Part shown: positions 1 to 22,162 of the stretch, one piece after another
How the letters are laid out: the number at the start of each line of letters is the position of its first letter
Position numbering within the stretch: position 1 is the stretch's first letter
The notes under the pieces: model-generated
The model's database searches: none
What the model was told of the DNA's origin: nothing
The model's input: the letters and a program-made list of their open reading frames with translations, nothing else
Position numbers and translations under genes: made by a program
Source of the DNA: Promethearchaeia archaeon
GTDB taxonomy: Archaea; Asgardarchaeota; Lokiarchaeia; Sigyniarchaeales; SOKP01
Reading direction: 5' to 3'
Assembly: GCA_029856085.1 (NCBI GenBank)
Contig: JAHQWI010000066.1
Location: 1-46,108 of the forward strand
Length of the DNA: 46,108 nt

Positions 1-50
1 CCCCCACACAGGGGTGTCATCATCTGTCTCGTTTTTTCACAGATAATTCA
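1..50 (-). promoter_or_regulatory. candidate SECIS element, cut by the window edge
   Basis: Directly after the stop of the TGA-containing peroxiredoxin gene, the minus strand can fold into two stems. A 6-bp stem (ATCTGT/ACAGAT, plus 22-27 and 39-44) encloses an A-rich loop. It is followed by ATGATGA and a GC-rich hairpin (CCCC/GGGG, plus 2-5 and 11-14, 5-nt loop) that touches the window edge. Archaeal SECIS elements usually lie in the 3' untranslated region, and such a GC-rich hairpin stands out in this AT-rich sequence. The rest of the element would lie outside the window, so the consensus fold cannot be confirmed. Confidence 0.4.
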
Positions 51-53
51 TCC

Positions 54-695
54 TTAATTGGGATTTTGAAGGTTTTTATCAATAATCGATGTCATCATTT
101 TAATGGAAGGTCGATCTGTTTTATCTTTACCAATATATTTCCATACAATAATCCCATCTTTATTAATTAAAAATTTACTTGGAACTGCCTGCTTTATTTT
201 ATAGTCTTTTCCTCCTCCAGGAGCATACCAGTAAACACCGTATTCTTTAGCTATTTTTGCCCCGCGATCAGATATCATATCGACTTTAAAATTGTTGTCT
301 TCTTTAAATACTTTTAATAACCTTACGCTATCACTTGCAATTGATAGAAGTTTGATTTTACGCTTTTTAAATTCTGATAAATTCTCTGTCAATAGTTTTA
401 AATGTTTCTTACAATGACTTCACCAGTTTCCTCGAAAAAAATCAATTAAAACACCATTAAAGTCCTTAAGAAGATCGTTTAAATTAATGTGGTTACCATA
501 AATATCGACAGTATTTATTAAAGGTGCTTTAATGCTAATAGCTATTCCATTTGGTCTGGGGAGTTCTTCGTTGTTCATAATATTCCATTTTGTCGAATTG
601 AATTTAAATAAGATCATTATAATCTGTAAAGTCATTAAAATTTGATATAAGACAAGAAATAATGAGATACTAATAATCCTCAAAAAGGAATTCAT
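54..695 (-). CDS. selenocysteine-containing peroxiredoxin-like protein (AhpC/TSA fold)
   Basis: Two open segments (420-695 and 54-419) are joined in one frame by a TGA at 420-422. Reading TGA as selenocysteine gives a continuous protein of about 213 residues with the motif FFRGNW-U-SHC. This is the place of the peroxidatic cysteine in the RGxWCxxC motif of thioredoxin-fold peroxiredoxin-like proteins. Downstream residues (AKEYGVYWYAPG, then PSKFLINKDGIIVWKYIG) continue the AhpC/TSA fold. The predicted role is thiol-dependent peroxide reduction with Sec as attacking residue. The start is uncertain: ATG at 695 adds a hydrophobic segment (residues 4-30, a possible membrane anchor) and overlaps the GTPase gene by 26 nt; ATG at 578 gives a soluble protein. 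A pseudogene is less likely because the frame and motif on both sides are intact. Confidence 0.8.
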
Positions 696-1197
696 TCAAA
701 ACATCAAAAGCTTTCTCGACATTATCCCCAGTTTTAGAAGATAATTCAATAAATGAAGCTAAATTGTATTTTTTTGCAGCTAGTATCCCTTCTTCACGTG
801 TGACTGCTCGAAATTCATCTAAATCTTTTTTTGAACCAATTAGCATTATTGGGATATCTCCCGCATTCTCTCTAACTATTTGTGTCCAATCTGGTAAATG
901 TTCTAGACTCATTGGATTTGTTATATCATAAAGAAAGAATGCACCATTTGCTCCTTTACTATATTGAGAAAGTAGAAATCTGAATCGTTCTTCACCACCA
1001 AAGTCCCAGATTTGTAATTTAACTTTCTTGCTGTTAAAAAGTGTTGTTTTAGAATAGAAATCAACCCCTAGTGTCAGTTTTAAGTCTTGCATGAAGTATC
1101 CCGAGATATATCTAAGAGTGAGTGATGTTTTTCCTACTGAAGCATCACCCAACATCATTAATTTAAACGTATAATCGTACTCTGTCATTCTCCTCAA
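670..1197 (-). CDS. Ras/Rab-like small GTPase
   Basis: The 175-residue protein carries all G motifs of the Ras superfamily: P-loop GDASVGKT (17-24), a switch I threonine (about 42), WDFGGEE (64-70), SKKD (122-125) in place of NKxD, and SSK (153-155). The residue equivalent to Ras Gln61 is Glu69 and Ala59 is replaced by Gly. It ends in FEDY, so no CaaX or CC prenylation motif is present. Small GTPases of this type are greatly expanded in Asgard archaea and are thought to act as GTP-dependent switches; the effector is unknown. An ATG at residue 4 is an equally good start. The gene precedes the selenoprotein gene on the same strand and its end overlaps that gene's longest form. Confidence 0.93.
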   Translation of the reverse strand: MRRMTEYDYTFKLMMLGDASVGKTSLTLRYISGYFMQDLKLTLGVDFYSKTTLFNSKKVKLQIWDFGGEERFRFLLSQYSKGANGAFFLYDITNPMSLEHLPDWTQIVRENAGDIPIMLIGSKKDLDEFRAVTREEGILAAKKYNLASFIELSSKTGDNVEKAFDVLNEFLFEDY

Positions 1198-20941: not shown

Positions 20942-22162
20942 TCATCTCAGATAATTTAATGCTGTTATTGCATATAGTTTTGTCACGTTTATCAAATCTT
21001 CAATATATACAAACTCATCGGTCGAATGAATGTTATTATCTCCTCGAAACGGTCCAATTAAAATTGTTTCTATTCCTTTTTGTTGGAAAAAATGAGCATC
21101 TGTTGTTGGCAACATGATTTTAAAATCTCTTTCTTCATTATATACTGCTTGATAAGCATTTTTAACAATTTTCGCAAAATCTGAGTTAATATCTGTTATT
21201 TGTGGTTCAATATGTATTGGTATTTGTACTGTTATGTCTAAATCAGGATCATCTTTCTTTAAATCTTCAATAAAATCTAAGATTCTTGTTTTCAATTCAT
21301 CAATATTTTGTTCTGGTATTGTATTAATCAAGCAATGTAAAACACATTTATCAGGTACAGTATTTACTGAGACTCCTCCTTCTATCATTGTAAAATTAAC
21401 ACTACTAATTTTAGACGGCATATCTGGGGAAAGAGGATATTTAGTTTCTTTAGATTTTAATTCTTCTTGTAATTCCATTAGAAAATTCATAATTGGTAGC
21501 ATTTTATTGATTGTATTTATTCCAGAATATATATTCCGATTAGGTGGAGGTAAATCTGGCCATCCTTGTGCGTGTCTACGTATTCCTTTAATTATAAAAC
21601 TTATCTGAAATGTTCCTGCTCGATATGCAACTGGATAATCACATACAGAATCACCTAATAAACATGCATCTCCTTTTACTATTCCATCATTTACAAGAAA
21701 CTCAGCACCCAATAGCCCTCCAATTTCTTCATTAATTACACCAGTAAAAATTAGTTTTCCATTTAACTTAACCCCCATGTCAATCAAAGCCTTGGTGGCA
21801 AAAATTTCTGCTACTACACATGATTTGTCATCAGATGCACCTCGTCCATAAATTTTTTCCCCAATCCTTTCTCCACCATAAGGGTTTTTTGTCCAACCAT
21901 TAAAAGTAGGCACAGTATCGAAATGAGCATTGAATATTAGAGTTGGTCCCTCTTCATTACCTATTTCACCTATAACATTGTGTCGTTTCCTTTGAGTTTG
22001 CATCCCAAACTCGTTCATTTTAGAAGCTATAAATTTTGAAATTTCTTTGTATCTTCCAGGGGGAACTATAGATTGTTTTTTTATCATCTCTTGAAGTAAT
22101 TCTATAATTTCTTCCCTCATATCATCTATTTTATCTAATAATACTTTCTCTAATTTATCCAA
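20942..22162 (-). CDS. M20-family metallopeptidase/deacylase (ArgE/DapE type)
   Basis: The 406-residue protein has the M20 dinuclear-zinc motifs: HFDTVP (His and Asp ligands, about 80-85), GRGASDDKS (the bridging Asp), NEEIGG (catalytic Glu and ligand) and a C-terminal DNNIHSTDEF with the last His. A lid/dimerisation domain lies between, starting near GIRRHAQGWPDLPPP. Family members hydrolyse N-acyl amino acids or small peptides, and the exact substrate is open. It lies between uxaA and the secernin gene (18 nt upstream of the latter). Confidence 0.9.
   Translation of the reverse strand: MDKLEKVLLDKIDDMREEIIELLQEMIKKQSIVPPGRYKEISKFIASKMNEFGMQTQRKRHNVIGEIGNEEGPTLIFNAHFDTVPTFNGWTKNPYGGERIGEKIYGRGASDDKSCVVAEIFATKALIDMGVKLNGKLIFTGVINEEIGGLLGAEFLVNDGIVKGDACLLGDSVCDYPVAYRAGTFQISFIIKGIRRHAQGWPDLPPPNRNIYSGINTINKMLPIMNFLMELQEELKSKETKYPLSPDMPSKISSVNFTMIEGGVSVNTVPDKCVLHCLINTIPEQNIDELKTRILDFIEDLKKDDPDLDITVQIPIHIEPQITDINSDFAKIVKNAYQAVYNEERDFKIMLPTTDAHFFQQKGIETILIGPFRGDNNIHSTDEFVYIEDLINVTKLYAITALNYLR

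Follow-up and report, generated by a model that had tools for sequence, protein, structure and literature searches.

A prxL-type gene of a Lokiarchaeon with an in-frame UGA most likely read as selenocysteine, and the eukaryotic-like SECIS element behind it

Peroxiredoxin-like proteins have already been described among the selenoproteins of Asgard archaea. In the text of Huang et al. (2024, PMC11227280), the Prx-like family is given as one of five widespread Asgard selenoprotein families, present in 43.2% of the selenocysteine (Sec)-using Asgards, and Prx is also named as a selenoprotein by Sun et al. (2021). A table in PMC13188914 lists a 'Prx-like thiol:disulfide oxidoreductase' with PF00578, the motifs UxxC/UxxU and 1-2 Sec residues; UxxU in Prx-like selenoproteins is known from reviews (PMC13188914, PMC9312934), and 'several sequences' with it are mentioned for ocean data (PMC2398784). 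Since Prx-like Asgard selenoproteins are thus published (PMC11227280), we regard the gene analysed here as a further member of the known prxL family; the exact locus is, as far as the searched literature goes, a new record. It shares with Asgard prxL, as described in the text of PMC11227280, the lokiarchaeal host, PF00578, UxxC and a type I eukaryotic-like SECIS element with AUGA_GA and an A-rich loop, and no difference was found that would take it out of the family.

Two other groups of selenoproteins were compared with it. The bacterial PrxU-type peroxiredoxins (TxxU; table in PMC13188914) share the AhpC/TSA superfamily and an active-site Sec, but in them the Sec occupies the second place of the motif, whereas in the protein from the window it occupies the first, and the score with NF040737 was 33 bits against a cut-off of 270. 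In an NCBIfam search of the joined protein, i.e. with the TGA read through, every match remained below the family cut-off. SelL has the motif UxxU. The SelL-related redox proteins (NF040769) share the thioredoxin fold, and UxxU is present in prxL paralogues; however, the window protein reached only 46 bits against a cut-off of 120.

The window, i.e. the whole analysed stretch of 46,108 nucleotides, contains the gene on the minus strand, close to base 1. When the minus strand was read from 695 to 54 with TGA as U, the frame was open throughout except for a single TGA at 420-422, and it ended with the stop codon TAA at 54-56. The original prediction had proposed this frame and this TGA without naming a strand, and both were borne out on the minus strand. 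It had also expected automated annotation to report two fragments, and genetic code table 11 indeed splits the locus into ORFs 54..392 and 420..695; the prxL locus illustrates clearly how Asgard selenoproteins are broken up by annotation. The proposed start at 695 did not hold. Sequence conservation begins at MNNEE (ATG 576-578), the preceding 39 codons are without conservation, and the nearest relative has a TAA within the matched stretch upstream of the MNNEE start, so the gene extends over approximately 54..578. The features of the coding part are as follows:

54..578, minus strand: prxL coding region, from ATG 576-578 to TAA 54-56, 174 residues including Sec
420..422, minus strand: in-frame TGA, most likely read as selenocysteine; TGA is likewise in frame in the 60 best homologue rows
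411..422, minus strand: redox motif U-S-H-C (UxxC) in the context GNW-U-SHC, from motif parsing of the frame and homologues
670..1197, minus strand: Ras-like small GTPase (our reading of the ORF), upstream of prxL; homologue in 13 of 29 prxL loci tested (L014-L042)

The joined protein matched PF00578 (AhpC-TSA) with 81.9 bits (cut-off 26) over residues 56-185, a match that spans the TGA at residue 92, in agreement with the predicted peroxiredoxin-like fold continuing on both sides. In the whole window there are only 2 sites where one TGA joins two open frames of at least 60 codons. The other one, at 20942, was rejected as a second selenoprotein, because its joined frame reads as two separate ordinary genes (named from our reading of the ORFs, without family search). 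Since a TGA at 20942 joins separate genes, such a join proves little alone; the prxL join stands apart from it in that homology crosses the TGA and the TGA is kept in relatives.

A homologue at E<=0.001 was found in 97 of 147 relatives' genomes, and the nearest relative in a named genome was 88% identical. Every one of the best 60 homologue rows, the lowest at 61.6 bits and with identities down to 32%, had at least one in-frame TGA, while the homologues free of TGA began at 46.3 bits and 33% identity. The TGA could have arisen by faulty sequencing, or it could be a true stop codon in a Cys gene undergoing decay, leaving two fragments or a pseudogene. The assembly is a metagenome-assembled genome whose contig ends 53 bases behind the prxL stop codon, and the unrelated join at 20942 lies in the same window, both of which would suit such an explanation; however, the TGA is in frame in all 60 best rows from many genomes, and both the frame and the 3' element are conserved. 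Error or decay is thus already contradicted by the present data, and we consider it highly improbable.

Reading of UGA by general read-through or reassignment (e.g. to Trp) would likewise open the frame, and nothing else was found to support it. The stops of 35 long ORFs picked from 56 listed were TAA in 25 cases, TAG in 8 and TGA in 2; as TGA still ends 2 of the 35 ORFs examined, it is not simply reassigned. Furthermore, the solved relatives have Cys, not Trp, at the first motif position, and a SECIS element and a tRNA-Sec are present, which makes reassignment scarcely credible. Our preferred reading, which we hold with high confidence, is that the frame is a prxL-type selenoprotein gene of a Lokiarchaeon, in which UGA 420-422 would be decoded as Sec by means of the 3' SECIS and the Sec machinery, to give a UxxC reductase. 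It is supported by the frame, the TGA of homologues, SECIS covariation, and the tRNA-Sec, SepSecS and SelD genes. Judged from the sequence, TGA 420-422 most likely encodes selenocysteine; the actual insertion and the SelB step we infer.

The 3' region carries the second set of features, to which the RNA model R2, built from 48 prxL SECIS elements, was applied:

1..53, minus strand: 3' region with eukaryotic-like SECIS, truncated by the contig end; R2 match 3-57 with 54.3 bits, the window being among the sequences used to build R2
48..51, minus strand: 5' side of the SECIS core, AUGA; GA invariant in 54 rows, T in at least 90%
39..47, minus strand: 5' arm of the upper stem, AUUAUCUGU, from fold, alignment and covariation
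28..38, minus strand: apical loop, GAAAAAACGAG; three A invariant in 54 rows
19..27, minus strand: 3' arm of the upper stem, ACAGAUGAU, from fold, alignment and covariation
16..18, minus strand: 3' side of the SECIS core, GA(C); A and C invariant, G in at least 90% of 54 rows
60..67, minus strand: 5' arm of the lower helix (AAAAUCCC), within the last prxL codons; the pairing 3' arm (GGGATTTT in L014) would fall past the end of the contig
1..14, minus strand: side hairpin CCCCU-GUGU-GGGGG, 3' side of the core; 4 bp in the MFE fold

Behind the stop codon the order is GG-AUGA-AUUAUCUGU-GAAAAAACGAG-ACAGAUGAU-GAC. Folding of this region gave a z of -2.88, with 2 of 200 shuffles equally good. The alignment comprised 54 3' regions, 8 of the 62 references being left out (two running off the contig, one with a broken frame and five distant ones, L093, L095, L096, L102 and L103, without a clear element). 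In these 54 rows the 8-bp upper stem was paired in 95.4% of cells and every pair was changed on both sides somewhere; stem covariation was 0.786 versus 0.350 in shuffled alignments (0 of 500) and at most 0.214 in slid ones. The ninth stem pair, formed in the window, was unpaired in 27 of 54. A strict pattern scan, which detected a SECIS behind 26 of 61 genes and in 10 of 1220 shuffles, was set aside in favour of alignment and covariation. Rfam returned no SECIS family among six matches up to E 10 for the window end, and a PHROGs search gave no match. With AUGA, a stem of 9 bp, a loop of 11 nt and GA, as compared with AUGA_[G/A]A, 7-15 bp and 8-20 nt for type I, the predicted element fits the published Asgard type I SECIS model.

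The eukaryotic SECIS is described in the text of PMC11227280 as two stems and an internal loop. An AUGA/GA core and an A-rich apical loop are common to it and to the lokiarchaeal element, whereas the lower helix that starts in the coding end and the hairpin 3' of the core belong only to the latter. The Euryarchaeal SECIS, with a GAA_A bulge between two stems with S-S pairs, is of another type than the window element. The lower helix is formed between bases 3' of the core and either the final codons or the bases that follow the stop; its mean score in 53 prxL elements was 15.0 versus 12.6 with partners swapped (sd 0.33, highest 13.6), and in 48 other elements (50 tried, two of which gave no core) 16.4 versus 10.7 (sd 0.42, highest 12.1). 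The small hairpin between the core and the lower helix, typically CCU-UGCA-AGG, recurs behind several gene families. In 54 prxL elements its mean score was 11.1 versus 7.1 in shuffles, a modest effect, since it beat 95% of its own shuffles in only 14 of 54 prxL elements and 5 of 26 elements of the ~310-residue family described below; one of its three pairs was changed on both sides in prxL, with 86.8% of cells paired. Some of these SECIS features may, reportedly, already have been described by Mariotti et al. in 2016. In the text of PMC11227280 a lower stem is mentioned as family-specific for frhA and selD, and the words 'hairpin' and 'three-way' are absent from that text; a literature search on archaeal SECIS with a three-way junction brought up one paper, from 2009. 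It has been proposed that Asgard SECIS elements link archaeal with eukaryotic selenocysteine coding; should the side hairpin and lower helix prove general, they would be a structural difference testable against binding by eukaryotic SBP2 and by the Asgard recogniser.

Close relatives of the gene were located in 12 loci of named genomes, all 12 labelled Candidatus Lokiarchaeota or Lokiarchaeia, in agreement with the predicted Loki-type host. The assembly of the window (G000) is 79.7% complete in 214 contigs. A tRNA-Sec with UCA anticodon was found by ARAGORN at G000:C50:4110-4202, with 63.0 bits for RF01852 (cut-off 47); as all 14 controls match RF01852 at E<=0.001, which is therefore unspecific, only matches over the cut-off (31 of 58) were used. 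SepSecS lies on the same contig, about 0.2 kb from the tRNA-Sec (484 bits, cut-off 225), and two SelD genes, both over the cut-off and with one TGA each, lie on C185. A PSTK-like kinase reached 131 bits, and since this is below the PSTK cut-off of 290.5, it could be KTI12-like. No SelB was found in the 80%-complete assembly. Elongation factor-like candidates on C117 (EF1A-like), C200 (IF2-gamma-like), and C173 and C102 (EF2-like) were rejected by ORF reading, the rejection for C117 excluding ORF C117:27208; a SelB/EF-like ORF of 366 residues on C8 had no Pfam GTPase-domain match and was not counted as SelB. Of the five relatives searched, four had their best SelB match 3-5 kb from the best tRNA-Sec match; none stood out in the fifth (G008). 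Contig C50 runs collinear with G003, the nearest relative, all the way to the final base of C50 (matching G003:C44 near 69934), and SelB in G003 starts at 70454, so that C50 breaks off about 0.5 kb short of the SelB place and the missing SelB looks like an assembly break.

By the rule of at least three Sec-pathway genes per genome (text of PMC11227280), this genome has tRNA-Sec, SepSecS and SelD over the cut-off. Thus the expected Sec machinery was recovered in part: these three genes were present, the PSTK-like kinase stayed below its cut-off and SelB was missing. The suggestion that Loki-type Asgards decode Sec in a partly eukaryote-like manner agrees with the AUGA/GA core, the Sec genes and the text of PMC11227280. 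We propose that the SECIS directly behind the stop in the mRNA would let the ribosome read UGA 420-422 as selenocysteine; the PSTK/SepSecS/SelD route would form this residue on tRNA-Sec, and SelB would deliver it.

A script run on the fetched loci kept 63 different prxL genes, with 41 UxxC motifs, 19 UxxU and 3 unparsed by the pattern in which U is nevertheless visible in the sequence or motif; the genome of the window carries one more UxxC paralogue, on C8. Across the 59 of these genes that were placed in a tree (four short, broken or incomplete rows were omitted), the first Sec of the motif was invariant, and the distribution of UxxU and UxxC required no fewer than 7 changes, of which well-supported branches force 5. 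A single UxxU clade was rejected (p-AU 4.6e-7), a result weakened by long branches. Exchange of Cys and Sec at the second motif position thus appears to have taken place five times or more. Three genomes carry a UxxU paralogue immediately after the UxxC gene (L071-L073 with L023, L024 and L028); in the window, a neighbour of that kind would fall beyond base 1.

The original prediction had placed the TGA at the column of the peroxidatic cysteine. The GNW-U-SHC motif is there, but the column is another: the Sec opens the UxxC motif and stands three positions ahead of the conserved Cys column of classical peroxiredoxins. In alignments to solved relatives, its counterpart in a ResA is the first Cys of CxxC; in an Aeropyrum peroxiredoxin it lies opposite the Ser of SxxC, the motif Cys being opposite that enzyme's Cys, which we take to be the peroxidatic one. 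In classical peroxiredoxins the peroxidatic Cys/Sec stands at the second place of T/SxxC, where the window protein has Cys, its Sec being at the first. The protein could therefore be a true peroxiredoxin, with the second motif residue (Cys) peroxidatic and the Sec resolving or tuning. The Aeropyrum alignment and the repeated exchange of the second Cys for Sec in relatives speak for this, whereas a ResA-type oxidoreductase carrying CxxC comes out as the best solved relative and the first Sec never varies in the tree; we regard it as possible, though rather unlikely. As for chemistry and electron donor, we think, by inference, that the gene encodes a cytosolic AhpC/TSA-superfamily protein with a thioredoxin fold and U-x-x-C in its active site. 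It would function as a selenol-dependent thiol:disulfide (or peroxide) reductase, in which the Sec selenolate would attack, the Cys three residues on would resolve it as a Se-S bond, and a thioredoxin-like donor would then reduce this bond.

At E<=0.001, R2 matched 64 places in 15 of 21 genomes. Forty of these were fetched, the remaining 24 comprising 18 at prxL genes and 6 already included. By motif and reading, the 40 were MvhD/FrhD (17), VhuU (5), HdrA (2), SelD (1), small TGA membrane ORFs (13) and unassigned (2); known selenoprotein genes of relatives are thus among those picked up by R2. Pfam on four representatives confirmed MvhD (FlpD) and identified the SelD one as an AIRS protein; it gave a NiFe hydrogenase in front of VhuU and, for HdrA, ferredoxin domains. 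In a run on five genomes, G056 had no R2 match, and G051 had MvhD elements although it is without a tRNA-Sec match.

Taken with the families below, we consider it probable that there is a three-helix class of lokiarchaeal SECIS (lower helix, kink-turn-like core with upper stem, and 3'-side hairpin), that two kinds of families absent from the published Asgard list exist (one of ~310 residues with Sec/Cys homologues, and small membrane-anchored GGUxC-like proteins), and that Cys/Sec flips in prxL gave repeated UxxU (diselenide-type) enzymes. Should the candidate families be real, the selenoproteome of Lokiarchaea would exceed the published one.

The candidate family of ~310 residues comprises L146 (G000:C124:5240-6214, minus strand) and its relatives L147-L189. 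It had no Pfam match over the cut-off and no NCBIfam or PDB match, and a homologue was found in 45 of 58 genomes. TGA stood at one column in 31 of 34 same-rank loci (...LATU NxxGY[VL]MGFS; aligned by eye), and a SECIS pattern was present behind the stop in 31 of the 34. In 10 more distant loci, also aligned by eye, the same column held Cys in five and TGA in CxxU in four, and one was too short. R2 matched 19 of 27 tested same-rank loci, none of 5 Cys homologues and, weakly, one CxxU locus. In most of L146-L173 there is no fitting ATG, GTG or TTG before the TGA; 13 codons ahead of the TGA there is an ATA codon with GGAGG about 9 bases before it, and the frames of L170 and L171 begin at this ATA, so a non-standard start codon is possible. 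L155, L160 and L161 (G008, G009, G010) keep TGA and SECIS and have an out-of-frame insert of ~28-31 bases (TCTTC...GAAGCAAGA) after TGAA, an unexplained feature that may be an intron, a frameshift element or decay.

The candidate small membrane selenoproteins (L138 on G000:C90, L193, L197, L202, L204, L207, L214, L227, L233, L234, L236 and L237) have an N-terminal RKxKIKK, one membrane helix, often GGU-x-C, then the stop and a SECIS. A protein search with one member gave matches in 9 of 58 genomes, with TGA in each; at 8 of these 9 loci an R2 element lay 8-32 bases behind the stop, and three came from outside the RNA search. L138, L197 and L207, missed by the protein search, were grouped by N-terminal likeness only. 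Weaker evidence, from few members, concerns two further sets of short TGA-containing membrane ORFs before an R2 element: L140, L190, L191, L192 and L212, with an acidic linker followed by C..U, and L209 and L211, with TG[VL][VM]AUG between two helices.
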